Notes: a model not told the origin generated them from the sequence alone. Positions 1 to 16,612 are shown, counted from the first letter of the stretch. The stretch is 21,529 nt of DNA from a virus (IMGVR_UViG_3300045286_000115:1-21529); one strand, 5' to 3'. A program made the numbers and translations.

Positions 1-219
1 TCGACATCTGACGCTACGGGCGCGCGCATCGCGGCTCTTGGCGACGCCCACGTGTGCGACCTGACGCCCCGTCCTGCATTGCAGGTATGGGGCACGGTGG
101 CTTTCGCGCAGCCCATGACTGGCATTCACTGCTATCCCTGCCCCGTCTGCCAGGGCACTCGTCGGATGCTTGCTTGCACCATCTGCAACAACACTGGCCG
201 CTTTGCGGACTATCCATGA
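1..219 (+). CDS. small zinc-finger protein, 3' end (5' end outside window)
   Basis: An open frame runs from base 1 to TGA at 217-219 without an internal stop, giving 72 residues of a protein whose start lies left of the window. Its C-terminal third has two paired-cysteine knuckles, CPVCQG and CTICNNTG, 10 residues apart from the last Cys of the first to the first Cys of the second. This resembles half of a DnaJ-type CxxCxGxG zinc-binding region. The first in-frame ATG is at 115, but the frame is open further upstream, so I do not choose it as start. The stop overlaps the ATG of the aminotransferase gene (ATGA, 216-219), so the two are probably translationally coupled. Small phage proteins with such knuckles are often unassigned; no specific role can be given. 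It could be a stray open frame, but the clean knuckles and the ATGA junction argue for a real gene. Confidence 0.6.
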   Translation, partial: STSDATGARIAALGDAHVCDLTPRPALQVWGTVAFAQPMTGIHCYPCPVCQGTRRMLACTICNNTGRFADYP

Positions 220-1250
220 TCAAGGTTTTGATCCCCGATCTCCCGAGCCCGCAAGCGATTCTGCCGTACCTCGAAGAGATGCACAACAGTGCGCAATACG
301 TGAACGACTGCCCGCTCGTACAGCGCTTCGAGGGCGCTTTGTCCGAGATCACCGGCTACCCGGTTGCAGTGGTGTCGAATGGCACGGTCGCGCTCGAACT
401 CGCCTTGCGCGCCCTCGAACTGCCCCCGCGGTCGCTGGTGCTGGTGCCGTCCGTCACCTATGTTGCATCAGGGCAGGCGATCCGCAACGCCGGGCTCACG
501 CCCGTGCTGGCCGACGTCGACCCGATGACTTGGCTGCTGACGCCCGAGTACGCAGCGAACACTGTGCGAGATCTCGACATCCGGGCGGTCATGCCTGTTG
601 CTGCATTCGGCGCCCGGCTGCCGCTACGCGAGTGGGCTCGCTTCCAAGGTGAAACTGACGTAAAGGTGATCGTCGACGGCGCCGGCAGCCTGTACTCGCA
701 GCAAGAGCAGGTTCCGATCCCGATCTGCTACTCGCTACACGCGACCAAGTTCCTCGGGGTCGGTGAAGGTGGCTTCGTGACAGGGCCCGGTGACTTCGTG
801 AAGAAGGTTCACTCACTTGCGAACTTCGGCCCGTACGGCACGAACGGCAAGATGTCGGGCTTTCACGCTGCAGTGGGGCTTGCAGCCCTTGCCGACGAAT
901 TTCAGCTTGCAACGAAGCGCATAGCTACTTTCGTACAGGAAGCTGCTTACCGAAACAGCCTGCCGCCCTGGGTCGGCCAGCAGCAGGCATCTATCATCGG
1001 TCGCACGGTCATGCCGATCCTCGTGCCGCGCCGTCGTGACCTGATCGAGGCGGCACTGCTCGAAGCCGGCATCGAGACGAAGCGATGGTACTGCCCGCTG
1101 CTTCATGAACGTGAAGAGTTCGACTGCGACCTGCTGCCCCTGGTGCATGCCCGCATCATCGGTGAACACCTGATCGGACTGCCTTTCCATTCGCAACTAA
1201 AGGCGACTGACGTTCAGCACATCTGCGACACACTGCGAAGGTTCCCCTGA
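216..1250 (+). CDS. DegT/DnrJ/EryC1/StrS-family PLP-dependent sugar aminotransferase
   Basis: This 344-residue protein matches the fold-type I aminotransferases that convert keto groups of nucleotide-linked deoxysugars to amines, using PLP and usually glutamate. Visible marks are the phosphate-binding SNGTVALELAL segment near residues 64-74, the cofactor-pairing aspartate in DGAGS (D154), and the Schiff-base lysine in SLHATKFLGVGEGG (K178) followed by the typical GEGG turn. It is slightly shorter than the usual 360-400 residues. I chose ATG 216 because it overlaps the preceding stop (ATGA) and begins right before the family's N-terminal region; an in-frame ATG at 54 would add 54 residues unlike the family. 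The stop at 1248-1250 overlaps the next ATG (TGATG). The following dehydratase probably supplies the 4-keto-6-deoxy substrate, so the product could be a 4-amino-4,6-dideoxy or 3-amino-3,6-dideoxy sugar nucleotide. The exact position is not predictable here. Confidence 0.9.
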   Translation: MIKVLIPDLPSPQAILPYLEEMHNSAQYVNDCPLVQRFEGALSEITGYPVAVVSNGTVALELALRALELPPRSLVLVPSVTYVASGQAIRNAGLTPVLADVDPMTWLLTPEYAANTVRDLDIRAVMPVAAFGARLPLREWARFQGETDVKVIVDGAGSLYSQQEQVPIPICYSLHATKFLGVGEGGFVTGPGDFVKKVHSLANFGPYGTNGKMSGFHAAVGLAALADEFQLATKRIATFVQEAAYRNSLPPWVGQQQASIIGRTVMPILVPRRRDLIEAALLEAGIETKRWYCPLLHEREEFDCDLLPLVHARIIGEHLIGLPFHSQLKATDVQHICDTLRRFP

Positions 1251-2230
1251 TGCGCATCATTGTCACCGGCGGCTTCGGGTTCATCGGATCCGAGTTCATC
1301 CGCCTTGCCTCGAAGCACGGGCATACACTGCTGAACGTCGACGCCCGCACCTACGCTGCCCGGGTTGAAAACCTCGTGCCAATGCCGAAAGGCATGATCG
1401 GCACCGTGACCGCAGACATCTGCGAAGCGAACACGATCCACACGGTCTTCAGCAGTTTCAACCCGCACGCCCTGGTGAACTTCGCCGCTGAGACTCATGT
1501 CGGCCGCTCGATCGCCGACCGTGAGGCCTTCCTGCGCTCGAACGTGATCGGTGTCGACGTGCTGCTGAACGAAGCCTGCAGGTACATGCGCCTCGTGCGC
1601 AACCCCGATTTCAAGTTCCTGCAGGTGTCGACCGACGAGGTGTTCGGTTCACTCAAGGGCGAACAGCTGCCGTGGAGTGAGTCTGCACCTTACGCACCGA
1701 ACAACCCCTATGCTGCCAGCAAGGCGGCCGCCGACCACATGGTCCGGGCCTACGCTCACACCTTCAGGTTGCAAGTGGTGATCACGCACGGTTCAAACAC
1801 TTACGGGCCTGCGCAGCATCCCGAGAAGTTGATCCCGACTCTTACGCTGCAGGCTGCAGCCGGACAGCCCATGACGTTACACGGCGACGGCTTGAACATT
1901 CGCGACTGGCTGCACGTGTCGAACCACGCTGAAGGCATTCTGCGTGCGCTGGAGTTCGGCATGCCCGGCGCGACATACAACTTCGGCGGCGGGTGCGAGC
2001 GTACGAACCTCGACATCGCGCGCATGGTCTGGTCTGCACTGCAAGAGGGCGAACCGAAGATCTCGTTCATTGAAGACCGGCCCGGAAACGATTTGCGATA
2101 CGGGCTCGATTTCTCTGCTGCTGCGCGTGACCTTGCATGGTCGCCCGGCCCGCTAATCGAGACGCAGATTGCCGAAGTCGCTCGCTGGTACGCAAAGAAC
2201 CCTTACTACAAGGATGAGTATGGCTGCTGA
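1250..2230 (+). CDS. NAD-dependent NDP-glucose 4,6-dehydratase (RmlB-like extended SDR)
   Basis: The 326-residue product has the full extended short-chain dehydrogenase signature. The NAD-binding loop is TGGFGFIGS (residues 6-14). The conserved NFAAETHVGRSI segment follows (78-89), then the dehydratase-specific STDEVFGS (S127, T128, D129, E130), the catalytic pair Y154/K158 in YAASK, and NTYGP...PEKLIPT with GDGLNIRDWLHV further on. The TDE triad is the hallmark of enzymes that turn dTDP- or UDP-glucose into the 4-keto-6-deoxy derivative, which distinguishes it from plain 4-epimerases. It is somewhat shorter than cellular RmlB (about 350). The ATG overlaps the aminotransferase stop, and the last 11 bases overlap the glycosyltransferase start, so all three are one coupled unit. 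No nucleotidyltransferase to make dTDP-glucose is visible; it may lie to the left or come from the host. Confidence 0.92.
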   Translation: MRIIVTGGFGFIGSEFIRLASKHGHTLLNVDARTYAARVENLVPMPKGMIGTVTADICEANTIHTVFSSFNPHALVNFAAETHVGRSIADREAFLRSNVIGVDVLLNEACRYMRLVRNPDFKFLQVSTDEVFGSLKGEQLPWSESAPYAPNNPYAASKAAADHMVRAYAHTFRLQVVITHGSNTYGPAQHPEKLIPTLTLQAAAGQPMTLHGDGLNIRDWLHVSNHAEGILRALEFGMPGATYNFGGGCERTNLDIARMVWSALQEGEPKISFIEDRPGNDLRYGLDFSAAARDLAWSPGPLIETQIAEVARWYAKNPYYKDEYGC

Positions 2231-4085
2231 AGATCCGAAGAAACTGCGCGCCGTCATCCCGAACGTCGCCCTCGAAGTCTTTGAGAAGGCGGTCTACACA
2301 GGCGACTTGGAGCGCGCGGGCACTTTGATGCACGACATGATCGTGAAGCTGAAGACAGGCGCGGGCTTCATCCACTATTCAGCCGATCCTCGCATCGCTC
2401 AGGTGCTGTACACCCGAGCCTGTGCGGCAATCGTCGCGCTGCTGATGAATCCGAAGTTCGAGTTGTCATCGGTAGGCTTCAACACACTTGCGGCTGAGCA
2501 CGCCACGATCGATCTGCTGTTCCGCGCGAGCGCTTTCGGCACGAGCGACCACATGCTGCCGCTGGTGAGCAAGAACGAGAACGCGCCCTCGGGCGAATTG
2601 CAGTTCGAGGCCGGCCCGATGCTGGTGAAGTACCTTCTGACGCACTCGCTGCGCAGCGGCTTCGCCCTGAACTACCGGGTGACGTTCAGTCGCTCGCCTG
2701 ACGCAACCTTCGCGCTGTGGGCGGGCATGCTAGCTGCCCTGGTGACAACGAACGCCGTTGCGCAGAAGCGGCGCGAGGAACTGCTCGAAGTGCACGACGT
2801 CTTCGAGAACTGCCTGATCCCGACCGAATCCCTGTCGACGATCAGCGATGCCTTCATGTACACCTCGTACGGGCTGCGCGCCGACAAGCACGAGGCGAAG
2901 CGCACGATCTCTCGCCTGTTCGCCAAAACTCTGCGCCATCACAACGTGCCGCTGCCGACTCCCGAAGAACTGGCAGCCCGGTGGGATGCGCTGTGCGCTA
3001 GCTCGAAGCCCCTCATGGTCGTTGGACTCGAAGCGTTCGGCTCAGTGCATGCGATGTACCGCGTGTACGCCCCGATCATGCGGCAGCTTCGTCGCAAGTT
3101 CTACCTGATCGGAATCAGTCGCGAGTCGGAGATCGACGACGACGCGAAGCGCGAGTTCGACGAGTGGCGCGAGATCCCCGCGGCAGGCGCAGGCATCGCG
3201 GATATCACGCGCATGATCAACGAGATTGCGCCGATGGTGATGTACTACCCATCGATCGGCATGGCTGTGTGGTGGGTGGCGCTGTCGTCGGTCAGGCTGG
3301 CACCGCTGCAGATCATGACCTTGGGCCACCCCGCGACGAGCGGATCACCTGAGATCGACTTTGTGCTTGCCGAAGAGAACACAATCGGCGATCACGATCT
3401 GTTCGTCGAACCGATCCGCTACTGGTCGCTAGGCGCGAACCGGTTTGTCATGCGCGATGACGCCGATCTGCCCGAGCCGCGCATCCCGGAACTTCGTGAG
3501 GGCCCGGTCAAGGTCGCGATCCCTTCAATGGTCGCGAAGCTAAACTTCGACTTCCTCGAACTGCTGAAGAAGGCTGCCGACGAAACCGAGACGCCGATCG
3601 AGTATCACTTCTTTCCGAACCAGATCGGGCTCACGCTGTTCCAGACCGCAGCGGAGATCCGGGATGTGCTGCCGACGGCGCGGATCTACGAGCGATCGCA
3701 CTACAACCAGTACATGCGCCAGATGCGCGAGTGCGACTTCATGGTCGTCACCTACCCTTTCGGGAACACGAACTCGACTCTCGACGCCTTGCACCTGGGC
3801 CTGCCCGTGCTGACGCTACGCGGCAACGAATGCCACTCGCGGTACGACTCGGTCATGCTCCAGAAGGCAGGCCTGCCTGAATTTCTGATCGCTGACACAC
3901 CCGGGGTGCTGATCGAGAAGATCGCTGTGCTTGCCGACAATGAAGTGTACCGATGGACCCTCGCAGAACAGGTGCGATCGGTTGACCTGCAGGCTGTGTT
4001 CTACGGCGACCCACCGAACCCGACCGAGATCGTCGACTTGGTCGACGACCTACTGCTCGAAGTCGCCCCCGGAGTGCTCGAATGA
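2220..4085 (+). CDS. HMW1C/NGT-like GT41 glycosyltransferase (putative cytoplasmic N-glycosyltransferase)
   Basis: This 621-residue protein resembles the soluble HMW1C/NGT branch of family GT41, which transfers hexose from a UDP-sugar to Asn in N-X-S/T. The first half is mostly helical, as in the family's N-terminal all-alpha domain. The GT-B catalytic part then shows a SVHAMYR block (H277), APLQIMTLGHPAT (H370), MVAKLN (K440), YPFGNTNSTLDA (F514 to D522), LGLPVLTLRGNECHSRYD and KAGLPEFLIA. As I recall, H277, K441 and D525 of the Actinobacillus pleuropneumoniae NGT are sugar-nucleotide or catalytic residues, and the positions here match within a few residues. There is no TPR array and no TM segment, so cytoplasmic action is expected. 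ATG 2220 is preferred because AAGGA lies 5 bases upstream, inside the end of the dehydratase gene; ATG 2214 is possible. The sugar-nucleotide genes just upstream suggest a matched donor. The acceptor is unknown. Confidence 0.88.
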   Translation: MAAEDPKKLRAVIPNVALEVFEKAVYTGDLERAGTLMHDMIVKLKTGAGFIHYSADPRIAQVLYTRACAAIVALLMNPKFELSSVGFNTLAAEHATIDLLFRASAFGTSDHMLPLVSKNENAPSGELQFEAGPMLVKYLLTHSLRSGFALNYRVTFSRSPDATFALWAGMLAALVTTNAVAQKRREELLEVHDVFENCLIPTESLSTISDAFMYTSYGLRADKHEAKRTISRLFAKTLRHHNVPLPTPEELAARWDALCASSKPLMVVGLEAFGSVHAMYRVYAPIMRQLRRKFYLIGISRESEIDDDAKREFDEWREIPAAGAGIADITRMINEIAPMVMYYPSIGMAVWWVALSSVRLAPLQIMTLGHPATSGSPEIDFVLAEENTIGDHDLFVEPIRYWSLGANRFVMRDDADLPEPRIPELREGPVKVAIPSMVAKLNFDFLELLKKAADETETPIEYHFFPNQIGLTLFQTAAEIRDVLPTARIYERSHYNQYMRQMRECDFMVVTYPFGNTNSTLDALHLGLPVLTLRGNECHSRYDSVMLQKAGLPEFLIADTPGVLIEKIAVLADNEVYRWTLAEQVRSVDLQAVFYGDPPNPTEIVDLVDDLLLEVAPGVLE

Positions 4086-4369
4086 AGAAGACCCCTTACA
4101 AGCCCCTGATCCCGTACACACCGGCCGGCGTGCCGCGGCTGCGCTTCAGGTGGATCGGCATGTACAGCCCTGCCGAACGGAAGACCCGGCTCTTCAAGGT
4201 GATCCGCAACAAGGGGCTGCCGGGCCTGCAAGGCGGCCACAGTGCGTTCGTGTCGGTGTCGCTCATGCCTGGGCTGTTCAGATGGGCTCGCCGGGGCAGC
4301 GAATGGCGTCTGACCGTCCTGGGCCTGTCGGTGCACTACCGCAAGTCGACATCCGGGCGGTTCGTATGA
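4082..4369 (+). CDS. hypothetical basic protein, 95 aa
   Basis: I do not recognise this family. The 95-residue product is rich in Lys and Arg, starts MKKTPYKPLIPYTP, and contains beta-prone stretches such as HSAFVSVSLMPGLF and WRLTVLGLSVHYR. No TM segment, signal peptide or cysteine motif is visible. Its ATG overlaps the glycosyltransferase stop (ATGA, 4082-4085) and its own stop overlaps the next ATG (4366-4369), so it belongs to the same translationally coupled chain. The high basic charge would allow nucleic-acid binding, but that is only a composition argument. The overlaps at both ends make a real gene likely. Confidence 0.7.
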   Translation: MKKTPYKPLIPYTPAGVPRLRFRWIGMYSPAERKTRLFKVIRNKGLPGLQGGHSAFVSVSLMPGLFRWARRGSEWRLTVLGLSVHYRKSTSGRFV

Positions 4370-4809
4370 AGCAAGAAATGGCTCTCGTGGCCGCCACTTG
4401 CGACCCGACCCTCGCGGGCAACGCCGCCCGCAAGACCCTGCGCGAGCAGACTGATGTGCTGATCCGCGAGGCCCTGCAGTTGAACTCGCTGCCAGCACTC
4501 GCCGCCCACGCCGGGCAGGTCATGCTGACGGTCGCCCAGATCCTTGTGAACGCCCAGGCCGAACCGGACGTGCCAGATTTGATCGAAGCGACTCAGGCAC
4601 TGATCGAAGACGGCCGAGCGGTCATGGACCGGGGCCTCATGATCGATTCACGCGAAACGCTACTCTGCGGCGCCGTGATGCTCGAACTCGCTTGCCGCGG
4701 GATCTTCCACGCCCTCGGGCTACCGTACGAGGCAGTGCTGAGTGCCGTTCTCGCAGGCGTCGATCTGGCGGCCCTGCTGCCCCCGAAGGCAGGTGAAGGT
4801 ACGGCCTGA
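4366..4809 (+). CDS. hypothetical helical protein, 147 aa
   Basis: No family is recognised. The product looks almost entirely alpha-helical, with alternating Ala/Leu-rich amphipathic stretches such as LPALAAHAGQVMLTVAQIL and EAVLSAVLAGVDLAALLPP. It has acidic patches in the middle and no signal peptide. The last third is hydrophobic, but charged residues interrupt it before it makes a convincing membrane span. I start it at ATG 4366, which overlaps the stop of the preceding gene (ATGA), rather than at upstream in-frame codons that would run antiparallel to the end of the glycosyltransferase frame. It is the penultimate gene of the plus-strand operon. It could be a small cytosolic regulatory or accessory protein. 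Confidence 0.7.
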   Translation: MKQEMALVAATCDPTLAGNAARKTLREQTDVLIREALQLNSLPALAAHAGQVMLTVAQILVNAQAEPDVPDLIEATQALIEDGRAVMDRGLMIDSRETLLCGAVMLELACRGIFHALGLPYEAVLSAVLAGVDLAALLPPKAGEGTA

Positions 4810-4820: not shown

Positions 4821-5072
4821 ATGCGCCGCAGCACCGGATGGGACCTGGGCCTTCACTTTCAGTTCGTCCTCTGGCTGCTGAAAGTCAAGAGCCTGTCAGT
4901 TCAGGACGTCGTCAGCGTGTTCGGTATCGCGGCCTGCACTGCCCGCAATTGGTGCGCCGCAGCAGAAAAGATCGGCCTGTTGCAGCGACGACCGCGCTAC
5001 CGAGGGCCGCTGATCTGGGTCGTCCACCCCGACAAGGGTCTGCCGCCACGCCTAGCGGCCACGAGGCGGTAG
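4821..5072 (+). CDS. putative small winged helix-turn-helix protein
   Basis: The 83-residue product carries a likely helix-turn-helix at about residues 26-50 (SVQDVVSVFGIAACTARNW followed by a helix ending EKIGLLQRR). A short beta-wing-like stretch RGPLIWVVHPDKG comes next, and the whole is basic. This is the layout of small winged-helix DNA-binding proteins of phages, but I cannot name a family. A GAGG sits 9 bases before ATG 4821. It is the last gene of the left operon. Its final 21 bases overlap, tail to tail, the end of the minus-strand membrane-protein gene at 5052, so transcription from the two arms meets here. Being next to the junction, it might regulate one of the two operons; that is inference. 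Confidence 0.7.
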   Translation: MRRSTGWDLGLHFQFVLWLLKVKSLSVQDVVSVFGIAACTARNWCAAAEKIGLLQRRPRYRGPLIWVVHPDKGLPPRLAATRR

Positions 5073-6392: not shown

Positions 6393-9300
6393 CTATCGCT
6401 TGATTAAGCTGACATGCGTCAAAGGTGCTGAGTCAGCGTTTGCATAGTAGTACAAGCCCACATCAGGATGTTGCCCTTTCAGCAATGCACCGGCCCTGTA
6501 CTGGCTTCCTGCTAACACACTGAACCTTGATGACAAAGTGAAGTGAGCCCGGCTGTTTGGCAATCCTTGTCGTAAATCTTGAGTTGGGGTGTTAGTTGAA
6601 TTCAAGGTGAACACATCGTCTCCAGCAGCAGTAAGGTCAGCAGTAAGGCAACAGCCGGTTCCGATCAGACCAGCCCCCCACTCTGTACCCCCGCCCGAAC
6701 CGTGAGCGTCTAGCTCGACAGTAACTTCAGCTACACAGTCAACCGCTGGCGTGAATACGATACCGCCCAAAATGCTTCGGCTGATGACTGCCTTGGGGTA
6801 GGTGCCTGAGGATGTTGAAGGCGTAAGGACTTCAGTTGCTGCGTTTGCTCCGATCTGCGCTGTTGCAACAGAGTCAAGCTGAGCAAGCTGCCCAGTCGAC
6901 AGATTCGCTGCGCTGACCCACGAGCCGCTGACTCTCAGGTACAGCACAACTGGCGAACTTGAAGTATCAGCCCATACGTCGCCGTCGACTGCACTCTCTG
7001 GCGCACTGTTCTGCCAGTACATGCGGTTGACCGTAGCGCCTTCCGCTGCATTCACAGGCTGGAAGTACAACCAGTCGACCCACACCGACGTCGTCGGGGG
7101 GCTCGCAGACATGTTATTCGCGCCCCAGGTCCACACAACTGCATCTGTCGACAACCAGTTCGGCGTGAAGTCGGCGAGCTGGAGGGTTTGGTAAGACGTC
7201 GTCAGCTTGCTGATGAAGTTCTGGCTGTAAAGTGTGGTAGCCTGGGTTTCGTTGTAGATGTTGAACGGCGCTGCAGTCGGCGAGCCGACCTTCTTCGCAC
7301 GCACGAAGACCTTGTACACCTTGCCCTGCACGAAGCCGGGCACCCGCTGCGATGCGGGGCCACCCGCTGCAGGCGTGAGGTAGTTGTATGCCGTCCAACC
7401 GTCCCATACCCGCAACGAACTGCCGTCCGACGCAGCAGTGTCGCTCACGATGTCAGATTGAGTGCCGTCGTTCCCTGCGTCGTCATTGCCGAAATTGCGC
7501 AGCACCACGCTGATTGCAGTCGCGGGCACATGGGTGATCAACGGCCAGTCGGCTCTCGTAGCTGCGTCTGCGATCCGAGGCGTGTACGACCCGGTCAGCA
7601 GGTCCGACAGCGCAGGTTCTGTGCCGTCGCACAGGAACACCATCGGCGAGGCGAAGATCATCGTGTCACCGACATGCGAACCGTAGTACTGGTAAGCGCG
7701 GGTACTGATGCTGCTGATCCCCGCTTTCCAACACCAATTGACTCCACTGTGAGCCAGCGCACCGGTAACACAGTCGAACATCCCCGCCCCGTTGGAGCTA
7801 AGACCCGTGCTGCCCGCCGGAAAGATGTACCCGACCATGAGGTACCACTGGTCTGCAGTGGGGGGCCTACTGCCGCCTACAAAGTAAGGGTTGTCTTCGA
7901 CTGTCGAAGTGTTCAGATTGCAGACATGCCCCGTCGAGTTGCTCGGACCCCAGTAAGCTTGACCGTCACCCGATAAGTTTTGGACAAAGCACGCGAAAAG
8001 ATACGTCTTCGTAGTGTCAATTTGGAGGTTATTTCCTTCTGCCCCATCGCTGACCCATCCGCCTTGTGCGCCGCCTGCTGACGTCGATACAGCCTTCCAG
8101 ACCGACCCGACCGTCACCCCGTCAGGCATCACTGCAACGTCAAAACTGTTCGTCGCGCCGCCTAGCGGGGACCATCGCTGAGTTGCCCCCGGCGCCCACC
8201 ATGAAGAGTCGATGTAAGGCTTGATGCTAGCGTCCTGCATCAGCACCCACGTACCGTTCTGACGAACGTAGGGGCGGTTGCCATGCGCAGTGTCGAACCA
8301 CAGCGACCCGCTGATTACGAAGTGCTGAGTAGCAGGGTCGACTGCCTGCGAATACACAATCGCCCCGGGGTTGACTGACAGCGCGGCCATCGCACCTGTC
8401 ACGGCGTAGGTGTACTCAGTGACATCGGCAAGACTCTGTTCTGCCCCGCCGTAGACATTGAAGCTGGTGAACTTGAGATGGACAGTCTTGCCGACATAGC
8501 TTGTCGGGTCGAGATCTGCGCTCTTGAAGATCTGACTGTCACACCGCACGAAGAGATCGCTCGTGGAGTGGGCCTGAGTGCCATCAGTACCGTACGCCCC
8601 GCGCACGAGGCCGGTCAGCGTGTACTGCTGCGCGCTCGTAAGCGTGGCAGTTTGGTACGCAAGGTATTCTTGATGCGCACCACCGATGTAACACAGCGTC
8701 ACCAGCGCGGAAGCATCGGTCGCGCTCCCGCTCGTAAGAATCGCTTTGTTGCCGTTCAGAGCGACAGGCAACGACCCGCCCGAGATCGCACCACTGAGCA
8801 CGCCGTGACGCGAGGGGGCGTTCAGTTCGCCCATCTTGCGGTAGTTCGAGCCGTCGAGGCTCACCCACACGCTGCAACCGCCCCAGTATTGACTTGTGCC
8901 CAGGCAAGCCGCCCAGATCTGCAAGCCTGTACCGGTCAGCGGCGCGGGCGCCTCGAAGATCGTCGGGACGTTGATCGAACCCGGGTCGACGTTGCGGTCG
9001 TGAATGAAGCCCTGCCCTGATTGAGTCGGATACGCCGTCGCGGTCGCACTGCCAATCGGGAAGTCTTCCGCTGTGATCGTCATCGCGCCGTCCGTATCTT
9101 CCTCGATCGAGGTGATCCTCACCGGATACTTGTTCAGGCCCTGCTCAAGATCGGTCAGCGTGACGATGTCCATCGGTTCGAGCATGGCAAACGCCCACGA
9201 CAACCGGAACGTGTAAGTCTTGACGACGTTCAGCGAGCGCTGCAGCAGTATCTGCACGATCGTCCGGGCAACTGACGCATCGCAGACCCAGGGCGCGGTC

Positions 9301-10595
9301 AGGATCTCGGCAGACCGAAGACCGTAGGTGTCAATGTCGGCGCCATCCTTGGCTTCGGCGATCTCTTTGGCGTAGTTGCCGGTGAAGAGTTTGCTCGGTG
9401 CATCCCAGGCCCCGCGGTTGCACCACTCGATGCGAAAGTGGTTGTACCGGTCCGCGGCAGCCTTGTCTGCAATCTGGATCGGGTTCTCGTTGTCGAGGAA
9501 GTGGTTGTCGTCGAGGTCGTACAGCGGCGTGGTGTTCGCCGTGTAGGTTCGACCGTTAGCGGTCAGGGACTTGTCGCCGTAAGGTACGATCCGCAACTGA
9601 TTGCCCGACCACACCCCGGCTGAGTTCGTCAGCTTGAGGCACTGCGCCACGAGATCAGCCGCCTTCTGTTGCGACGTGATCGCCGGGCTCAAGAGCAGGC
9701 CTGAGGCGAGGCAGTAGTCAGAGTAGGTCGTCAGATCCGCGAGCCGCGAAGCCGGGAACTGCGCGCCACCGCCGGCCCCGATCAGCAGGTCAGTCAGAAA
9801 CGAAGCGCCGTCAACATCGGGTAGTGACGTGCTCGAACCATAAGCCAACCGCCCGACCACCTCGAAGTTGTGGTTTTCAAGCTGCGCAGCGTTGCCTAGG
9901 CGGTACTGCTGACCCGCCACGTAGCACAAGCCCGGGTACCGCAACTGCTCGTTCGAGGGGGCGATCGAAGTGAGAGGGCCCCATAGCGGCTGATCGATCG
10001 CACCAGGGGCGAAACTAAGCCCTAGCTCGTCGAGGCTTTGCTGCCCTGTCGAGCCGCTAAGCCACTGATACGTGATCAGCAACTGCTGCCCTGTGAAGTC
10101 CGCCGAGAACGTGATCTTGCTTGACGCCGAATCGAAGGTGAAGTCGACCCCCTGCGCAAGGGGAGGTAACGGGTAGCCTTGCGAAACACCGATGATCTGG
10201 CGGATCGTGTGCAGCGGGGTGAACTGCCGCGATCCTGAAACCGTGTAGTACTCGGTCAGGATGTTGTAAGTCGAGGGGTCGACCCCTCCTTTCGATGCGG
10301 CTTGCCCTTTCCACACCCGCGGAATCGAACTGACGAGCCCGGCGCACACAGCCATGATCAAGTCAGCAGCGTAGGTGTAGGTCGTATCGACCATGTTCGG
10401 GCTGCCGCCCTTGCCGCCGCCCTGATTGGCAGTCTCGTGCGCAGTTGCCGAGAAGTTGCCATACCACAGCAGGTTCCCGGCGATCCGGTTCACGCCCCAG
10501 ACAAGAGGGATGCAGACCCCGTAAGCCGAACTTTGGATCTGGAAAGCTTCCAGCTTGTCTTGACTGTGCGAAAGAGACTGGCTACCCCCACCCAT
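6393..10595 (-). CDS. tail-tip / host-specificity protein (GTA gp15 or phage J-like)
   Basis: This 1400-residue protein ends the tail operon, where siphoviruses encode the central fibre or tip attachment protein. The first 550 residues look like the tip hub: IPLVWGVNRIAGNLLWYGNF near residues 30-48, a YTYAADLIMAVCAGLV strand, and the long Phage-tail_3-like block with DGASFLTDLLIGAG and YSDYCLASGLLLSP (about 260-305), reaching LEPMDIVTLTD. The rest is a chain of beta-rich, Gly/Ser/Thr-rich modules. Two copies of a wrapper-like motif are visible: FDTAHGNRPYVRQNGTWV near 770 and DGDVWADTSSSPVVLYL with SGSWV near 1205. These are likely carbohydrate- or receptor-binding parts. The start ATG lies 14 bases inside the peptidase gene end. 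The C-terminal coding bases are clearly lower in GC than the N-terminal part, which suggests module exchange. Confidence 0.88.
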   Translation of the reverse strand: MGGGSQSLSHSQDKLEAFQIQSSAYGVCIPLVWGVNRIAGNLLWYGNFSATAHETANQGGGKGGSPNMVDTTYTYAADLIMAVCAGLVSSIPRVWKGQAASKGGVDPSTYNILTEYYTVSGSRQFTPLHTIRQIIGVSQGYPLPPLAQGVDFTFDSASSKITFSADFTGQQLLITYQWLSGSTGQQSLDELGLSFAPGAIDQPLWGPLTSIAPSNEQLRYPGLCYVAGQQYRLGNAAQLENHNFEVVGRLAYGSSTSLPDVDGASFLTDLLIGAGGGAQFPASRLADLTTYSDYCLASGLLLSPAITSQQKAADLVAQCLKLTNSAGVWSGNQLRIVPYGDKSLTANGRTYTANTTPLYDLDDNHFLDNENPIQIADKAAADRYNHFRIEWCNRGAWDAPSKLFTGNYAKEIAEAKDGADIDTYGLRSAEILTAPWVCDASVARTIVQILLQRSLNVVKTYTFRLSWAFAMLEPMDIVTLTDLEQGLNKYPVRITSIEEDTDGAMTITAEDFPIGSATATAYPTQSGQGFIHDRNVDPGSINVPTIFEAPAPLTGTGLQIWAACLGTSQYWGGCSVWVSLDGSNYRKMGELNAPSRHGVLSGAISGGSLPVALNGNKAILTSGSATDASALVTLCYIGGAHQEYLAYQTATLTSAQQYTLTGLVRGAYGTDGTQAHSTSDLFVRCDSQIFKSADLDPTSYVGKTVHLKFTSFNVYGGAEQSLADVTEYTYAVTGAMAALSVNPGAIVYSQAVDPATQHFVISGSLWFDTAHGNRPYVRQNGTWVLMQDASIKPYIDSSWWAPGATQRWSPLGGATNSFDVAVMPDGVTVGSVWKAVSTSAGGAQGGWVSDGAEGNNLQIDTTKTYLFACFVQNLSGDGQAYWGPSNSTGHVCNLNTSTVEDNPYFVGGSRPPTADQWYLMVGYIFPAGSTGLSSNGAGMFDCVTGALAHSGVNWCWKAGISSISTRAYQYYGSHVGDTMIFASPMVFLCDGTEPALSDLLTGSYTPRIADAATRADWPLITHVPATAISVVLRNFGNDDAGNDGTQSDIVSDTAASDGSSLRVWDGWTAYNYLTPAAGGPASQRVPGFVQGKVYKVFVRAKKVGSPTAAPFNIYNETQATTLYSQNFISKLTTSYQTLQLADFTPNWLSTDAVVWTWGANNMSASPPTTSVWVDWLYFQPVNAAEGATVNRMYWQNSAPESAVDGDVWADTSSSPVVLYLRVSGSWVSAANLSTGQLAQLDSVATAQIGANAATEVLTPSTSSGTYPKAVISRSILGGIVFTPAVDCVAEVTVELDAHGSGGGTEWGAGLIGTGCCLTADLTAAGDDVFTLNSTNTPTQDLRQGLPNSRAHFTLSSRFSVLAGSQYRAGALLKGQHPDVGLYYYANADSAPLTHVSLIKR

Positions 10596-11016
10596 GACAC
10601 AGACTCCAGTACTGAACCGGCCGACCGCTCAAAGGCGCTTCGCCTTGGCGGTTGAACGTGACGCCGATCTTGACATAGGCGTGCACGACTCCGAGGGCAT
10701 CGTCGACGATGATCGAGCCGTGCGAGAAGCACCGGCCGAACTTGAACAGTGCTACATCGCCCTGCCTGGGCGAGTCAACCGGCACGGCCCCTGCCGACCG
10801 AAGCCACTTCAGGTATAGCTCATCTGAGTGGTGCAGGTGGAAGCGGGGGTTGTAAGGCCTGGGATCGAAGCCCCTCGGGCCCAGGCCTGCTGCGTCGAAC
10901 ACCCGAACGAGCAGCATCGCGCAGTCGACACCTACACCCTTCAGGTCGGCACATTCATGATAGGGAGTTTTCAGCCACGACAGGGCTTCGGCAGCGATGC
11001 GCTCGCGCAGGTTCAT
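10582..11016 (-). CDS. NlpC/P60-family tail-tip peptidase (GTA gp14-like)
   Basis: The 144-residue product is a compact NlpC/P60 cysteine peptidase of the tail-tip type, which cuts peptidoglycan stem peptides during DNA entry. The catalytic cysteine is C32 in GVDCAMLLVRVF, the general-base histidine is H99 in CFSHGSIIVDD, and H112 in VVHAYV is the likely third polar residue. RQGDVALFKFGR before the histidine is the usual GD strand. It has no signal peptide, as expected for a virion component and unlike a secreted endolysin. Its ATG overlaps the DUF2163 stop (ATGA, 11013-11016), and its end overlaps the tip gene by 14 bases. The position between DUF2163 and the tip gene matches the gene order of gene transfer agents and many siphophages. 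Confidence 0.92.
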   Translation of the reverse strand: MNLRERIAAEALSWLKTPYHECADLKGVGVDCAMLLVRVFDAAGLGPRGFDPRPYNPRFHLHHSDELYLKWLRSAGAVPVDSPRQGDVALFKFGRCFSHGSIIVDDALGVVHAYVKIGVTFNRQGEAPLSGRPVQYWSLCHGWG

Positions 11017-11918
11017 GCAATCGTGTCCGGCGGCGGGATGTAAGGCTCGCCGCGGAAGTGCACGACATTCGCGTACCGGTTCGTGCAGGTAGCTTGACTC
11101 TTGTCGCAGCCGGCCTGAATGCTGAATGTGTCAGCCGGTGCCCAGGCGAAGGGGAAAGGCACGATCGTCGTGATCGAGACGTTTCTCAGGTACTGCCTCA
11201 CCGTGCGAGACACACCATTGTTCGCGCCACTGGTGAAGGTAATCTTGCCCAGATCGAACATATGGTCGCCGAGGGCAAGTCCTGTGTTTGGAATCGTGGC
11301 GTAGTCGCTGCCTGTCGGCCCGGCTGAAGCAGAGGACGAGTAGGTGAACGATGCCCGCGATACGCCGCAGTTCGCGTCGAAGAGAGTGTTGCGACAGTAC
11401 GGCTGATAGACGTCGCGGGGCAGCGACACGTCAAGCAACTGCAGATCGCTGTTGACCGTCACTTGCTTGGTGTGCCTGCCGCCTTCGATTGCGCCCACAG
11501 TACCGCTGAACTCGACACAGCTACCGACCGGGCTGAAGCTGCCGCCGCCGTCGTCATGGTAGAACAGCCGCTCGTGCAGCAGAGCCGCCCCGAGCAGACC
11601 ACTCTGCGCGAGGAACTTCATGAAGGGAACCCCGTTTACAGTCACGCCAGGGCTCGAACTGATCGACAGGGACAACGAGTCGACCTGCAGCGATGTGCTG
11701 CGCGAAATCCGATCGCGCTCGATGATCGGGCCAGCAGTGAAGGTTCGGCCGCCTACGGTCAGACTGCGGTCGGCACCTGTGTACCGCAGTACCTGCCCGC
11801 CAAGCAACGTGAACGTGTACAGATCGGCCCAGGGCGCCTGCCTGACGTTGCCCGTGATCAGCGAGTTCAGGAAGGCCAGAAGCGCGCCGGTGCTGACTTC
11901 CCAATAGGGCGACTTCAT
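11013..11918 (-). CDS. DUF2163 / phage BR0599-family tail protein (GTA gp13-like)
   Basis: The 301-residue product carries the N-terminal DUF2163 region (WADLYTFTLLGGQVLRYTG near residue 30, then ERDRISRSTSLQVDSLSLSI). The C-terminal phage_BR0599 part is marked by PYCRNTLFDANCGVS and, near the end, AGCDKSQATCTNRYANVVHF with GEPYIPPP. The cysteines in these blocks (near residues 180, 190, 274 and 280) are conserved in the family, where they may bind metal or an iron-sulfur cluster in the tail hub. It probably forms part of the distal tail hub between the DUF2460 protein and the tip peptidase. Both ends overlap neighbours by ATGA (11013-11016 and 11915-11918), so it is tightly coupled. There is no sign of truncation; family length is about 290-300. 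Confidence 0.92.
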   Translation of the reverse strand: MKSPYWEVSTGALLAFLNSLITGNVRQAPWADLYTFTLLGGQVLRYTGADRSLTVGGRTFTAGPIIERDRISRSTSLQVDSLSLSISSSPGVTVNGVPFMKFLAQSGLLGAALLHERLFYHDDGGGSFSPVGSCVEFSGTVGAIEGGRHTKQVTVNSDLQLLDVSLPRDVYQPYCRNTLFDANCGVSRASFTYSSSASAGPTGSDYATIPNTGLALGDHMFDLGKITFTSGANNGVSRTVRQYLRNVSITTIVPFPFAWAPADTFSIQAGCDKSQATCTNRYANVVHFRGEPYIPPPDTIA

Positions 11919-12517
11919 GGCAGCACCGTCTTGAAGCTGACTTCACGGGCTTCCCATAGCTTGTGCATGAACTTGGTGAACTCAAGTTCGTCCGCCTCGA
12001 AACGGCATCGCCAGTAGAACGAACCGGTCCACGTCAGCGAAGCCCCGTTGGCCGGCGCTGACACGAACGTCACTAGGCCTGAACTGCCGACCGTGTAGTC
12101 GCCCGGCGTGCTCTTCAGGACCCCCGCGACCGAGATTGCTGGCGCCCCGTTCAGGTCGTACACCGGCTCGCTCGAAGCCCCCAGCGTGCGCGCAAGCTGA
12201 AAGGTCTTCGTGCTCCCGTCGCCAGTACCGAACACACTGCCGCCAGCAGCATAGTCGTCAGGGTCAGTGAAGAACCAGTCGTCGTAAGACCCCTTCCGCG
12301 CATTGTAGAACCCGAGCAAGGTACGGAACCCATCGAGCCAGGATCCGTTGTCAGTCAGAATGTCGTATGTGAGGATGTAGCGGTATCGAGGTGACCCCAT
12401 CAAAAAGCCGCGGTACTCGCGCCCACTGGCCGCCTCGTGCGTGATGGTCTTGAACATCGGCACGCGCCGGACGTCGAATGCGAGCCCAGGTAGCGAGGGA
12501 TAGACTGCGTTGCTCAT
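11915..12517 (-). CDS. DUF2460 distal tail protein (GTA gp12-like)
   Basis: The 200-residue product matches the DUF2460 family: an opening YPSLPGLAFDVRRVPMFKT, then ASGREYR and a YRYILTYDILTDN strand. The aromatic segment LLGFYNARKGSYDDWFFTDP follows, and the end is WRCRFEADELEFTKFMHKLW. Family members act as the distal tail ring that joins the tail tube to the baseplate hub. Length is typical (about 200-210). The gene begins within the end of the tape measure gene (ATGA at 12514-12517) and ends within the DUF2163 start, with no free ribosome site, so translation probably depends on the upstream gene. Confidence 0.92.
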   Translation of the reverse strand: MSNAVYPSLPGLAFDVRRVPMFKTITHEAASGREYRGFLMGSPRYRYILTYDILTDNGSWLDGFRTLLGFYNARKGSYDDWFFTDPDDYAAGGSVFGTGDGSTKTFQLARTLGASSEPVYDLNGAPAISVAGVLKSTPGDYTVGSSGLVTFVSAPANGASLTWTGSFYWRCRFEADELEFTKFMHKLWEAREVSFKTVLP

Positions 12518-15240
12518 GGCCGTCGGATCTGGAAGTTGCGCTCGGCAAGCTTCAGGTGCTTGACGATCTTGTCGCCGCCGCCCATCTTGAGCCAGCCTTC
12601 AAAGCTGCGCGCGTCAAGCGCTTGCACCGTCAGGTTCATCCCGCCTCCGAGCCCGCCGCCCTTGTTGATCAGTTCGCGAAGGCCCTGGGCTTCCTTCGGC
12701 GGGATCGCCATCTCGCCCTTGTGCATCGCGACAAGCTGATCCTGGGGGAGTTCCCATTGGCCCTTCTCAGCCCCTGAGATGTTGCTGATGATGCCCTTGA
12801 CCGCAGCAAAGGCCGCCGCACCTGCTGCAACCGCCAGGAACGGGCCGACGTAGGGGATGCTCGCCATCGCTTGGAAAGCCCCCGCCATCGCTTCCCAGGC
12901 GTAGACCATGATGTTCTTGATCGCCGTGCCCGCTGTAATCGCCAGCGACGTCAGGGCTCCCGCCTGCTCGGCAGCCGTACGGGCTTCCACACCGGCGACT
13001 GTGGCGGTCGTCTGCGCTTCTTGATTCACCACGGTAGCCGCCAGCATCCGGTCGAGCCCGTCAACGACCATGTCGACTGCCTTCTGAATGACCTTGCCGC
13101 CTTCGGTACCTTCGCCGAAGAGCCGCTGCATGAACTTCTTCGCGATCAGTTCCTCGAAGGTCTTCGCGACCGAGATCCCGAACTCGCGGAAGATGTCGCG
13201 CATGCTCTTGACGTGCTGCATCATGTTGACGAGCAGGCTCTCCCCTGCCTGCTCGATGCTCCGCTGCGCATCGAGAGCGAAGCGCCGACGTTCAAGAGCG
13301 GCTTGGTTGTTGATCTGCGTCAGCCGCTGCTGATGCTGTTGTTCAGCCTTTTCGCGGTCAGCGTCAAGCTTGGCTTGCTCTACCTTGTCTTGGTGTACAA
13401 GATTCTGTCGATCGTTCAGCCCTTGCTGTTCGATCCGATACCGCCGGTCTTCAAGTTCGAGTTCAGCCGTCAAGGCTTCCTGATCGTCGACCTGACGAAG
13501 GGCCTTCCGCTGTTGAAGGATAGCTCGGTCCTGTTCGAGTTCAGCACTTGCGCGCCCACCAGCCCTGCCCGATTCGACCTGACTCAGCTTGTCGGCCTGA
13601 GCCTGCAGGGCGTTCGCTTCTTCCCGCGCATTCGCCCGGGTGATCTCCAGTTGCTGCATTCCGAGCGCGATCAGCTTGGCTCGAATTGCAGTCTCTTGCG
13701 TGTCGATCTTCGTGCGCTCGATAGGGTCCTTCGCCTTGCCGCGCGCCTTCTCCAGCGCACTCAAACTGACGACTTCGGTGTCGATCTCGGCGCGGTTCTG
13801 CTTGAGTTGCAGGTCCCGCTTCTGTTCGTAGTAGCTTTCAATGCTGACAAGGTTGTTCTTGTACGAATCGTCAAGTGCCTTCTCTTGTTCCTTGACCGAC
13901 TCACGAACGATCGCAAGTTCCTTCTGTGCTTCAGCAGCCGCAAGGGCCGCCTGAGCCTGGGCAAGCTGCGGGCCTTTCATGTCCTTTGCGCCGCCAGTAC
14001 CTGACCGAGGCTTCGCAGCAGTTTCAGGCGCCTTCGCATCAGGCACATCTGCCATCTTCTTGATCTGCTCGCCCCCGTCGCGAGCAATATCCGCCATCTT
14101 CTTCGCGTGCTCGCGCGCCATGTCCTGCAACTGTTCAGAACCGCGCCGCCACACTTCAGCGATCCGAGCAGGTGCTGACAGGATCGATCCAGACTCGAAC
14201 GCGACGATCGTCTCGCCGAGCACCATGAACGTCACGACAACCTGCTCGATCGCGACCTTGATCACCTCGAACGCTTCAAGGATGACTGTCTTGACCGTTA
14301 CAACCGCGATGCCGATCACGGTCAGCACGTTTTTGAAGAACTGCAGGCCGGTCATACCCGTCGACTCAGGCGCGAACGTGTCGTGCAACACCTTGCCAAT
14401 GGCAGCAAAGCCTTCGGTGACGAGGTTAGCGACCGAGCGCACGACTTCCATGACCGAATCAACGATCGTGATGAACAGTTCGAGCGCAGCGCCCGCCCCC
14501 TCGACGATCTGAGGGCCCAGGGCGACGAACTTCTCGCCCATCTCGGTGAGGCGCGGCATCATGCGGGTGCCGATGGTCTTCTCGACTGCTTCGAGCACCT
14601 CGTGCACCTTCACCATCATGTCGCCGTAAGCGTCCTTGATCTGAATATCCGATTCGGTGACAACGAGGCCTAGCTTACGCTGTTCTTCGGCAAGTTCCTC
14701 GACGTCCATCTTCATCGCACGCATGAAAGGCTCGATGTCACGAGCCCCGCGGCCGAGCAGTTGAAGTGAAGCTGAGTTACGGTCAGCCCCGACCTTCAGC
14801 CCTTCAAGCGCTGTGATCGTGTTGCGGAACTGCTGTTCGGCCGACAGCATGTTGCCGTTGCCGTCGCGCAGTTGAATGCCGTAAGCCCGGAAAGCTTCCT
14901 CGTTCGAGTTGATGCGCATCTGCATCCGCATCATGGTTGACGCGAAAGCTTCACCCGAGCTATCCGACATCCTGAGCGCAGTGGCCCAGGCCTGCGCTTG
15001 ATCCGCCGCCATGCCTGTCTGGTACATCAGGCGGCGGGTCGAATCGATCATCTCTTCAGTGCTGCGGATCATCTCGCGGAAGGCTTCACCTCCTGCAAGG
15101 GCCGCCGTGACTCCTGCGAGCACGCCAGAGAACTTCTCGAAGACCCCCGACAGACCCTCGAACTTCTCTTTCAGTGTCTCGACCGCTTCCAGCAGCGGAT
15201 CAGCACTGGCGCCGAACCCTACGTGGACGTCTTCAGCCAT
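12514..15240 (-). CDS. tail tape measure protein
   Basis: At 908 residues this is the second longest gene of the tail operon and lies directly after the tail chaperone frameshift pair, the fixed position for tape measures. Residues 20-95 and roughly 420-700 are long helical, Gln/Glu/Lys/Arg-rich coiled-coil stretches. A hydrophobic region around 230-330 and another near the C-terminus (AYAWEAMAGAFQAMASIPYV, then AVAAGAAAFAAVKGII) are the membrane-active segments typical of such proteins. The last 70 residues contain GGGLGGG before a short tail. With the usual 1.5 angstrom per residue rule, the tail would be roughly 135 nm long. The start at 15240 has GGAG 8 bases upstream and overlaps the end of the frameshift extension by 22 bases. 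Confidence 0.93.
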   Translation of the reverse strand: MAEDVHVGFGASADPLLEAVETLKEKFEGLSGVFEKFSGVLAGVTAALAGGEAFREMIRSTEEMIDSTRRLMYQTGMAADQAQAWATALRMSDSSGEAFASTMMRMQMRINSNEEAFRAYGIQLRDGNGNMLSAEQQFRNTITALEGLKVGADRNSASLQLLGRGARDIEPFMRAMKMDVEELAEEQRKLGLVVTESDIQIKDAYGDMMVKVHEVLEAVEKTIGTRMMPRLTEMGEKFVALGPQIVEGAGAALELFITIVDSVMEVVRSVANLVTEGFAAIGKVLHDTFAPESTGMTGLQFFKNVLTVIGIAVVTVKTVILEAFEVIKVAIEQVVVTFMVLGETIVAFESGSILSAPARIAEVWRRGSEQLQDMAREHAKKMADIARDGGEQIKKMADVPDAKAPETAAKPRSGTGGAKDMKGPQLAQAQAALAAAEAQKELAIVRESVKEQEKALDDSYKNNLVSIESYYEQKRDLQLKQNRAEIDTEVVSLSALEKARGKAKDPIERTKIDTQETAIRAKLIALGMQQLEITRANAREEANALQAQADKLSQVESGRAGGRASAELEQDRAILQQRKALRQVDDQEALTAELELEDRRYRIEQQGLNDRQNLVHQDKVEQAKLDADREKAEQQHQQRLTQINNQAALERRRFALDAQRSIEQAGESLLVNMMQHVKSMRDIFREFGISVAKTFEELIAKKFMQRLFGEGTEGGKVIQKAVDMVVDGLDRMLAATVVNQEAQTTATVAGVEARTAAEQAGALTSLAITAGTAIKNIMVYAWEAMAGAFQAMASIPYVGPFLAVAAGAAAFAAVKGIISNISGAEKGQWELPQDQLVAMHKGEMAIPPKEAQGLRELINKGGGLGGGMNLTVQALDARSFEGWLKMGGGDKIVKHLKLAERNFQIRRP

Positions 15241-15518
15241 TCCGGTTTCTCCGTTGACACGCTGCCCAACACTGCTACCAATTCGTCCAAGCCCGCCGCA
15301 TCAACAGGCTTCGGGGTCGCACTCTCGGGGTCCTTCATCCCGAGCCCCTTTGCGATGGCCGCCACTGACACCGAGAGTGGCGGGATCTTCTTCCAGCGCT
15401 CGCCGATTGCGAGCACCATCGGGATCGTGACTTCCTGCCCTACGTACTCCCAGGTCCATCCGAAGGCGTCGACGAGGGCAACGTAGAGGGCATCCCAGTC
15501 GACGACGCCGCCGTCTCC
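15219..15518 (-). CDS. tail assembly chaperone, -1 frameshift extension (gpT-like part)
   Basis: This frame is entered by a -1 shift from the upstream chaperone gene and is not an independent gene. Read from the slip site it gives 99 residues starting GDGGVVDWDALYVALVDAFG, then WTWEYVGQEVTIPMVLAIGE, and ending EWLKTST. The segment around DAFGWTWEYVGQ is typical of the T part of G-GT chaperone pairs. The first in-frame ATG (15419) would drop the conserved DWDAL...FGW portion, and I see no strong ribosome site before it, so a frameshift fits better than internal initiation. The complete fusion would be about 216 residues. The frame ends 22 bases inside the tape measure gene, as is common. Confidence 0.82.
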   Translation of the reverse strand, partial: GDGGVVDWDALYVALVDAFGWTWEYVGQEVTIPMVLAIGERWKKIPPLSVSVAAIAKGLGMKDPESATPKPVDAAGLDELVAVLGSVSTEKPEWLKTST

Positions 15519-15868
15519 CCCGGTGCCGGTGTCCCTGCCTTGCGCTGGAAGCCGCTCACACTGAAGACCGCATTCATCGCTTCAGCGTAGTTGCCCAGGT
15601 CGATCATGTCGCGGACCACTTCAAGCGTCATGCTCGGGTAGTTGCGCGCCAGCGCAGCGTGCACGATCTCTTGCACAGCCTTGAGCCGATCGCCTGTCGG
15701 AATGCTCGCCGCAACCCCTGTCATGACCGCCTCGAACTGCTGCTGCAGTTCCTGAATGTCGTCGAGAGCGAGAGGCGGCACACGGTAGGCTTCCTCGCCG
15801 AACGTGACCCACACCCCGCCCCTCTTCCGTTCGGGCGGGACACGGGTCACTTCACCATCATCGGCCAT
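15440..15868 (-). CDS. tail assembly chaperone (gpG-like, unshifted product)
   Basis: The 142-residue product lies between tail tube and tape measure. It begins with an acidic/basic N-terminus, has PPLALDDIQELQQQFEAVMT and IVHAALARNYPSMTLEVVRD, and ends with a low-complexity Ser/Thr/Pro/Gly tail (residues 111-142). The helical core is what tail chaperones of the G type look like; they coat the tape measure during tail assembly and are absent from the virion. The low-complexity tail arises because the reading frame continues past the shift site in the wrong frame. The start has GGAGGAG about 6 bases upstream, inside the end of the tail tube gene, predicting high expression. Confidence 0.88.
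   Translation of the reverse strand: MADDGEVTRVPPERKRGGVWVTFGEEAYRVPPLALDDIQELQQQFEAVMTGVAASIPTGDRLKAVQEIVHAALARNYPSMTLEVVRDMIDLGNYAEAMNAVFSVSGFQRKAGTPAPGETAASSTGMPSTLPSSTPSDGPGST
15515..15523 (-). promoter_or_regulatory. likely -1 ribosomal frameshift site CCGGGGGAG
   Basis: On the minus strand the zero frame reads CCG GGG GAG (codons 116-118 of the chaperone). After a one-base slip back, the glycine tRNA again finds GGG, and translation continues GGA GAC into the gpT-like frame. The P-site match is perfect; the A-site re-pairing is imperfect, so this is not a canonical X XXY YYZ heptamer. It is the only homopolymeric run in the overlap, and the -1 frame is also open further upstream, so another slip point is possible. 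I place it by inference from frame geometry. Confidence 0.55.
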
Positions 15869-15871
15869 CGA

Positions 15872-16603
15872 TCACTCCTCCAGCGACAGCGACCCGATCG
15901 CGTTCGCCGAGTCGGCGAAGGCCGCGAAGTCGAACTCGGGGATCACGAAGTCTTCCAGCTTGGTCGCGATCGTCAGCTTCGACGACATGCACGCGTTCAG
16001 CACCATCGTGAGTTGCTTGCTCTGGAAGGTCGTCGTCAGCACCGCCGAGAACTGCGGGGCGGACCCGAGCAACTGGTTCGTGATGCTGATCTTCTTGCCG
16101 TTCGAGGCATCGGTCCAGTTGTAGGACACCGCCACGGCGACGTTGTTCTGCGACGTGTTGAACGAGTAGACCCCTGTCGTCTCGTTGCAGGTGTACTGCT
16201 GGCCGACCGGGCCGTTCGCCACGCGCGTAAAGACCGTGTTGTCGGCCGCCAGCACCACGCCCAGGTCGGTGATGGCCCCGTTGTGCGTGACCGTCACGTT
16301 GCCGCTCGACACGGTCTGCGCTTCCGCAACCGCCGTCTTCACCTCGCCCGTCGCCGGGTTCGACAGGCCGAAGAACAGGTCGTTGAAGGCCTGGGCGTTG
16401 AACTGGGCGAACTTCGCCTTGCCCGAGATCTTCCCGGTGCCACGACCGAGCGCGATCGGAAACTGGTACTGCCCGTGCAGTTCCTTGACCGAGAAGGACA
16501 TATCGATCGACACGTCCTGCAAGCCGCCGAAGCGCACCGGAGTGGCGGGTGCGGTCAGATTGCGGCCATAGAGCACACCCGAACCGAAGCTGTATTGCGA
16601 CAT
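15872..16603 (-). CDS. major tail tube protein
   Basis: The 243-residue product is beta-rich with few charged helices. It has an N-terminal FGSGVLYGRNLT, a VSIDMSFSVKELHGQYQFPI strand (residues 31-50), a GRGTGKISGKAKFAQF segment, and a central Thr/Asn/Val-rich region. This is the usual composition and size of siphovirus tube proteins, and the gene lies between the terminator and chaperone genes. The conserved tube motif LHGQ...FPIALG...GKI is seen in related phage tails. Five N-X-S/T sites occur (N15, N102, N140, N149, N162). AGGAG is 6 bases before the ATG and overlaps the TAG stop of the terminator gene. Confidence 0.85.
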   Translation of the reverse strand: MSQYSFGSGVLYGRNLTAPATPVRFGGLQDVSIDMSFSVKELHGQYQFPIALGRGTGKISGKAKFAQFNAQAFNDLFFGLSNPATGEVKTAVAEAQTVSSGNVTVTHNGAITDLGVVLAADNTVFTRVANGPVGQQYTCNETTGVYSFNTSQNNVAVAVSYNWTDASNGKKISITNQLLGSAPQFSAVLTTTFQSKQLTMVLNACMSSKLTIATKLEDFVIPEFDFAAFADSANAIGSLSLEE

Positions 16604-16612
16604 GACTTTCTC

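Follow-up and report, generated by a model that had tools for sequence, protein, structure and literature searches.

The N-glycosyltransferases (NGTs) related to HMW1C, such as ApNGT, AaNGT and HiHMW1C, form a known group within CAZy family GT41, and in the collections searched here soluble enzymes of this type were found, outside the phages described below, in bacteria only and mostly next to adhesin genes. Here we describe a phage-encoded relative, carried by a viral sequence of 21,529 bp (IMGVR_UViG_3300045286_000115:1-21529) that corresponds to an entire IMG/VR virus record, linear and metagenomic, and is referred to below as the window. Its gene is the third of three overlapping genes, after those of a sugar aminotransferase and a nucleotide-sugar dehydratase. 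The phage enzyme resembles the HMW1C-like NGTs in two-domain fold, catalytic and nucleotide-binding residues and length, at 27-31% identity, but differs from them in lacking Arg177 and His214, in having HAMYRCYA in place of HSIYRTHS, in falling on a separate branch and in being tied to amino-sugar genes, not to an adhesin. The GT41 NGT family being known, the new elements are the subfamily, its occurrence in phages and the coupling to amino-sugar synthesis. From sequence comparison, and with a probability of roughly 0.6, we read the cassette as a phage sugar-plus-transferase module, by which an N-acylated dTDP-4-amino-4,6-dideoxyhexose (viosamine-like) would be transferred to a protein, likeliest of the virion.

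Described systems with related components

The viosamine island of Pseudomonas syringae (vioA/B/S/R/M) offers the nearest parallel for the sugar genes: those of one group of related phages (type A, see below) correspond to vioA, vioB, vioS and vioR (PMC3927599), and a methyltransferase is present in some records of a second group (type B). In P. syringae the N-(3-hydroxy-1-oxobutyl) group of modified viosamine is attributed to the KAS III, FabG and acyltransferase homologues (PMC3927599). However, the transferase of the island, VioT (1173 amino acids, aa), is not a GT41 enzyme and caps an O-linked rhamnosyl glycan on Ser (PMC3927599), and the window shows only part of the gene set. Mimivirus likewise encodes the synthesis of an N-acylated 4-amino-4,6-dideoxyglucose, for the fibril glycans of this giant virus (PMC9614988), but its pathway is UDP- and not dTDP-linked, belongs to a eukaryotic virus and has a transferase not established as GT41.

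Among phages, glycosyltransferases have been proposed to modify the capsid protein of mycobacteriophages (e.g., Maravista, PMC11256854). Their relatedness to the GT41 enzyme is not established, however, and no PHROGs family matches this enzyme, nor do the BFVD viral structures include a full-length match to its model (best template modelling (TM) score normalised by query, 0.37). The closest isolates by capsid are the Brevundimonas phages vB_BpoS-Polewnik and Strzyga, with a major capsid protein 53-54% identical and an identical head/tail gene order; they differ in having no NGT-like protein by tblastn of INPHARED, a search that returned no NGT at all. In the open-licence literature no report of a phage NGT or GT41 enzyme was found, although an unseen one may exist.

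Fold and active site of the GT41 protein

The three genes at the centre of the cassette are as follows.

216..1250, + strand: DegT/DnrJ-type pyridoxal phosphate (PLP)-dependent sugar aminotransferase, 344 aa (PF01041, PDB match, Lys motif)
1250..2230, + strand: RmlB-like dTDP-glucose 4,6-dehydratase, 326 aa (TIGR01181, PDB 1g1a, alignment)
2220..4085, + strand: GT41 HMW1C/NGT-like glycosyltransferase, 621 aa, non-canonical subfamily (HAMYRVYA, FGNTNSTLD)

A first-pass annotation of the window had noted their start-to-stop overlap at 216-4085, which the open reading frame (ORF) coordinates bear out (1 bp between aminotransferase and dehydratase, 11 bp between dehydratase and GT41), and had suggested profile and structure checks on the transferase, both of which agree with its family assignment. 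The protein passes the cut-offs of PF18071 (HMW1C_N, 37 bits) and PF13844 (Glyco_transf_41, 27.5 bits), aligns with ApNGT and AaNGT in phmmer and matches the NCBIfam NGT model NF049992 from end to end (1.8e-78, 264.7 bits, below the equivalog cut-off of 1000). An AlphaFold model, with phage homologues as input alignment (predicted local distance difference test 87.7, predicted TM score 0.87), contains both domains of the NGT architecture, the GT-B catalytic domain and the N-terminal all-alpha domain, and compares with AaNGT at a Foldseek TM score of 0.88 and a VIA Z score of 45.7 across 597 residues; the next nearest folds are SPY and OGT, with Z scores of at most 32.7. The 621-aa protein is thus predicted by modelling to have the whole NGT fold, acceptor domain included.

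Residues were mapped in 13 phage sequences with the AaNGT complexes (PMC10507012) as reference. The window enzyme displays SVHAMYR with H277, GHPAT, K440, FGNTN with D522, NECHSRYD and GLPEFLIA, and the catalytic and phosphate-side positions of AaNGT (H276, R280, G369, H370, K440, T519, N520 and D524) are identical in 13/13. The same 13 sequences have Leu or Met in place of Arg177, Ser in place of His214, and the changes Ser277 to Ala, Thr437 to Met, His494 to Arg and Gly521 to Ser; in the A2 alignment another residue occupies position 177 of the window protein, with Arg still missing from that stretch. AaNGT is inactive as the R177A or D215A variant and 11-fold less active as H214A; its Asp215 contacts the +2 Thr, and its Asn520 contacts glucose in the model (PMC10507012). 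The phages therefore retain the Asp of the Arg177/Asp215 dyad that reads the +2 Thr/Ser, but have lost its Arg in every sequence. HSIYRTHS has become HAMYRCYA, and GNTNGI has become GGTNSN, in the majority of the phages and of the branch's bacterial members, the window variants being HAMYRVYA and GNTNST. Thus, the earlier statement that the enzyme keeps the NGT motifs stands for the catalytic and nucleotide-binding residues, but not for the acceptor machinery, nor for the altered sugar/pyrophosphate-side residues.

Given these losses and changes, one cannot take it for granted that the enzyme glucosylates the Asn of N-X-S/T. An ordinary NGT, which would take UDP-glucose from the host and glycosylate such a sequon in a phage or host protein while the sugar genes served another role, could account for the fold, the catalytic residues and the retention of Asp215 and Asn520. 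The substitutions found in all phage sequences, a score of 265 bits against an equivalog cut-off of 1000, and the constant linkage to aminotransferase and acyltransferase genes make this the least probable of the enzymatic alternatives considered. The loss of Arg177 and His214, together with the ranking of OGT and SPY as next nearest folds, leaves somewhat more room for modification of a residue other than Asn, namely O-glycosylation of Ser/Thr as by those two enzymes, the sequon-reading residues being gone; this too is unlikely, as sequence and structure are much nearer NGT than OGT (Z 45.7 versus at most 32.7) and Asp215 is kept.

The sugar genes and their conserved neighbourhood

The aminotransferase matches PF01041 (4e-45, 155 bits against a cut-off of 19.8) and, among PDB entries, 2po3 best; its best NCBIfam match is DesI (120 bits, below the cut-off). 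The catalytic PLP-binding Lys lies in SLHATKFLGVGEGG, and the HATK motif is conserved across all relatives. By these features the DegT enzyme is probably the C4 aminotransferase of a 4-keto-6-deoxysugar nucleotide. The dehydratase matches TIGR01181 (2.5e-102, 342 bits) slightly under the equivalog cut-off of 365, so that dTDP-glucose is a likely but uncertain substrate. It also matches PDB entry 1g1a (E 6e-72), and it keeps the Rossmann glycine (GGFGFIG), Thr-Asp-Glu (STDEVFG) and YxxxK (YAASK) motifs. Phage dehydratases of this RmlB-like type are already known, with 235 matching records in INPHARED.

Fourteen further phage-type loci with GT41 relatives (34-48% identity) were retrieved: 11 (L009-L019) from a profile scan of viral contigs, L100 from a second viral-contig scan using other patterns, L197 (in G027) from a search of 44 capsid relatives, and L020, a phage-like contig from a metagenome-assembled genome (MAG) with tail genes syntenic with the window. 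Profile scans were required for this: with the GT41 or the aminotransferase protein alone as query, neither viral nor genome contigs gave a match. A DegT aminotransferase gene adjoins the GT41 gene in all 14 phage-type loci (the window among them) whose upstream sequence is available, a linkage far beyond chance; the RmlB-like dehydratase is present in 8 phage-type loci, and a PglD/VioB-like hexapeptide acyltransferase is found in 14/14 non-window records. The decoration genes fall into two sets. Type A, which comprises the GT41 subclade of the window (G001, G002, G007, G010, L020), adds genes for a Rieske oxygenase, KAS III and a reductase of FabG type, and in these five relatives the combination of aminotransferase, acyltransferase, KAS III and FabG is complete. 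Type B (G003-G006, G008, G009, G011) adds genes for an AMP-binding ligase and an oxidoreductase of GFO/IDH type, frequently accompanied by those for a GT2-radical SAM protein and for a methyltransferase. The distribution of the two sets (5 and 7 records) matches the two GT41 subclades without exception. The search for the same gene order in other phages, advised in the first-pass annotation, hence recovered the aminotransferase throughout and the dehydratase in part, and the amino-dideoxyhexose donor proposed there on account of the dehydratase and DegT genes is strengthened by this linkage in phages and bacteria and by the acyltransferase and acyl-supply genes of the relatives. Downstream of one type B cassette (L013:15708-17921, G005) the GT2 glycosyltransferase and radical SAM domains are fused.

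Bacterial homologues

The phage enzymes fall on one branch with DegT-linked bacterial homologues from Thiotrichaceae, Planctomycetota and other groups, separate from the adhesin NGTs. Bacterial members such as those of Thioploca, Halobeggiatoa, Thiomargarita and Kuenenia group with the phages with a Shimodaira-Hasegawa-like approximate likelihood ratio (SH-aLRT) of 100, a value also obtained for a phages-only group. The Halobeggiatoa locus (L023) is organized like a type B phage cassette, with GT41, acyltransferase, ligase and GFO/IDH genes in a row and the aminotransferase upstream. Among 369 sampled genomes of a single class, one locus (L213) has an overlapping DegT-GT41 pair with HAMFRC, and the three canonical HSIYRTHS enzymes are without a DegT neighbour. 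Of the 98 homologues compared, all 21 with a DegT gene no more than 5 kb away have Ala277, whereas 71/77 of the remainder have Ser277. In a Pseudomonadales MAG (L029:9971-12901) the DegT gene lies after, not before, the GT41 gene, whose product keeps Arg177 and has Ala277; it is a possible intermediate between the two branches.

In Planctomycetota (Kuenenia; L037 and L057, region 6-21 kb) the DegT-linked GT41 gene lies near genes for a GT61-TPR protein and a hexapeptide acyltransferase, and a nearby gene run resembles flagellar rod/hook genes, as judged by sequence and not by profile. A plasmid search recovered NGTs at 27-31% identity, of which the six examined adjoin adhesin-type genes or an adhesin secretion gene, unlike the window, which has no adhesin gene. 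Full-length plasmid NGTs of Escherichia, Salmonella, Caballeronia and Paraburkholderia (e.g., L003-L006) are publicly labelled “cobalt ABC transporter permease” or “peptide transporter”, an apparent mis-annotation. AmGGT of A. minor was rejected as a relative, being related to Agt (GT4) and not to NGT.

Proposed pathway

Synthesis of such sugars proceeds from dTDP-glucose through a 4-keto-6-deoxy intermediate to a 4-amino-4,6-dideoxyhexose. In the proposed model, the dehydratase would convert host dTDP-glucose to dTDP-4-keto-6-deoxyglucose, which the DegT enzyme would aminate at C4 to give a viosamine-like dTDP-4-amino-4,6-dideoxyhexose. In the related phages the PglD/VioB-like acyltransferase would then N-acylate the sugar, with the acyl group supplied by KAS III and FabG (type A) or by the acyl ligase and GFO/IDH protein (type B). 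Finally, the GT41 enzyme would transfer the sugar in the cytoplasm, by inverting chemistry of the NGT/OGT type, onto a protein side chain. Use of the amino sugar is suggested by the constant company of aminotransferase and acyltransferase genes and by the way in which the subclades track the decoration genes. Less firmly, a protein acceptor may be expected because the acceptor domain is present and the characterised GT41 enzymes, to our knowledge, all act on proteins; likewise, the retention of Asp215 with loss of Arg177 and His214 points to Asn as the most likely residue, within a relaxed or changed recognition motif. A virion protein as likeliest acceptor, followed by a host surface protein, is also proposed more weakly than the use of the donor.

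Several observations weigh against this pathway. No acyltransferase gene is seen in the window, where aminotransferase and dehydratase are the only sugar genes seen of the full vio-type set; the left end is cut within a Cys-rich gene that in L010 and L015 occupies the interval between Rieske oxygenase and aminotransferase, and an acyltransferase gene, if any, would therefore lie off the contig. KAS III and FabG genes are missing from their usual downstream place. Several records have no dehydratase gene, including the whole records G001 and G007 and the 40-kb G010, in which the host must then supply the keto sugar. All equivalog cut-offs lie well above the score of the aminotransferase, so that its product could be a C4 or a C3 amine, of gluco or galacto configuration. 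Lastly, a single change suffices to explain Ala277 on the tree, so that its association with DegT genes is one clade-level event, and an independent-pairs test of that association had too few independent events.

Phage carriers and possible targets

The genes on the opposite strand of the window constitute a siphophage head-tail operon that ends convergently with the cassette, which identifies the record as a phage. Four siphophage contigs of 61.8, 65.1, 63.7 and 67.5 kb bear the cassette together with terminase, portal, capsid, tape measure and tail genes, their capsids being 66-74% identical to that of the window. The phage location initially assigned to the cassette is in this way supported. 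A chimeric contig in which bacterial genes were fused to a phage fragment might be suspected in a linear metagenomic record of 21.5 kb, but is rejected as highly improbable, given that independent phage contigs, some as long as 67 kb, have the same cassette beside homologous structural genes. The GT41 enzyme was not found in the capsid relatives G024, G052, G054 and G057 (46-65 kb, possibly incomplete records), and the cassette is therefore probably an accessory module. A comparison of capsid N-X-S/T counts between carriers and non-carriers of the enzyme was discarded, since kinship among the phages confounds it.

In G007 the cassette is collinear with genes for RecT and YqaJ, and the late genes occupy the other strand. 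This arrangement suggests that expression is early or middle, a timing that would also allow host targets. A tyrosine integrase gene (PF00589) is present in a cassette-bearing phage (L110:13285-14289, G001); some members may therefore be temperate. Both features would suit a variant in which the same amino-sugar donor is used on a surface protein of the host (a pilin, a flagellin, or a protein of the outer membrane or S-layer), for example to mask receptors and exclude other phages, as would the proximity of L037 and L057 to flagellar genes and the resemblance of type A genes to a flagellin-glycan island. Several bacterial carriers belong to the Thiotrichaceae, however, and these are gliding filaments, so flagellin is not a general target. 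A host target seems improbable, if slightly less so than O-glycosylation, and modification of a virion protein stays the preferred reading. In three related phages the tail tip gene is separated from the cassette by a gene for a LamG/concanavalin-like (PF13385) protein of virion type (L018:15010-15777; L020:9527-10330, minus strand; relative at L009:14507-15955), a possible receptor-binding protein or glycosylation acceptor.

Remaining genes of the window

1..219, + strand: small Cys-rich (zinc-finger-like) gene, 3' end only, truncated by the contig end (ORF; alignment with L010:7053-7397 and L015:8654-8932); no match in a Pfam search
4082..4369, + strand: 95-aa ORF, ATGA overlap (translational coupling); relatives were looked for and none found
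4366..4809, + strand: orf147, 147 aa, all-helical-looking, ATGA overlap, kept with the cassette in relatives
4821..5072, + strand: 83-aa small helix-turn-helix-like protein (weak matches, sub-cut-off), final + strand gene ahead of the convergent late genes; may lie outside the cassette
6393..21464, - strand: late operon (context, outside the cassette), with
6393-10595, - strand: tail tip
10582-11016, - strand: NlpC-like
12514-15240, - strand: tape measure
18710-20230, - strand: major capsid
20310-21464, - strand: protease

Relatives of orf147 occur in L009, L010, L012, L015, L018, L020 and L197 (8 records with the window), and no match was obtained in Pfam, PHROGs or INPHARED. In L012 it is placed between the aminotransferase and dehydratase genes.

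Implications

A wider proposal can be advanced only tentatively, since we hold it less likely to be right than wrong: that tailed phages possess a self-contained glycosylation system built on a second, non-canonical NGT subfamily, which would attach N-acylated 4-amino-4,6-dideoxyhexoses to virion proteins at a motif other than N-X-S/T, and that the whole module has been exchanged between phages and bacteria. If a phage lineage does combine an NGT-type enzyme of its own with a pathway dedicated to amino sugars, this would imply undescribed glycoproteins of the phage virion (or the host), and the phage GT41 would be a natural enzyme possibly accepting dTDP-amino sugars. The subfamily marked by HAMYRCYA and GGTNSN has bacterial members that are unstudied as far as the searches show, and with it the role of protein glycosylation in phages, and whatever benefit it may bring, becomes directly testable.

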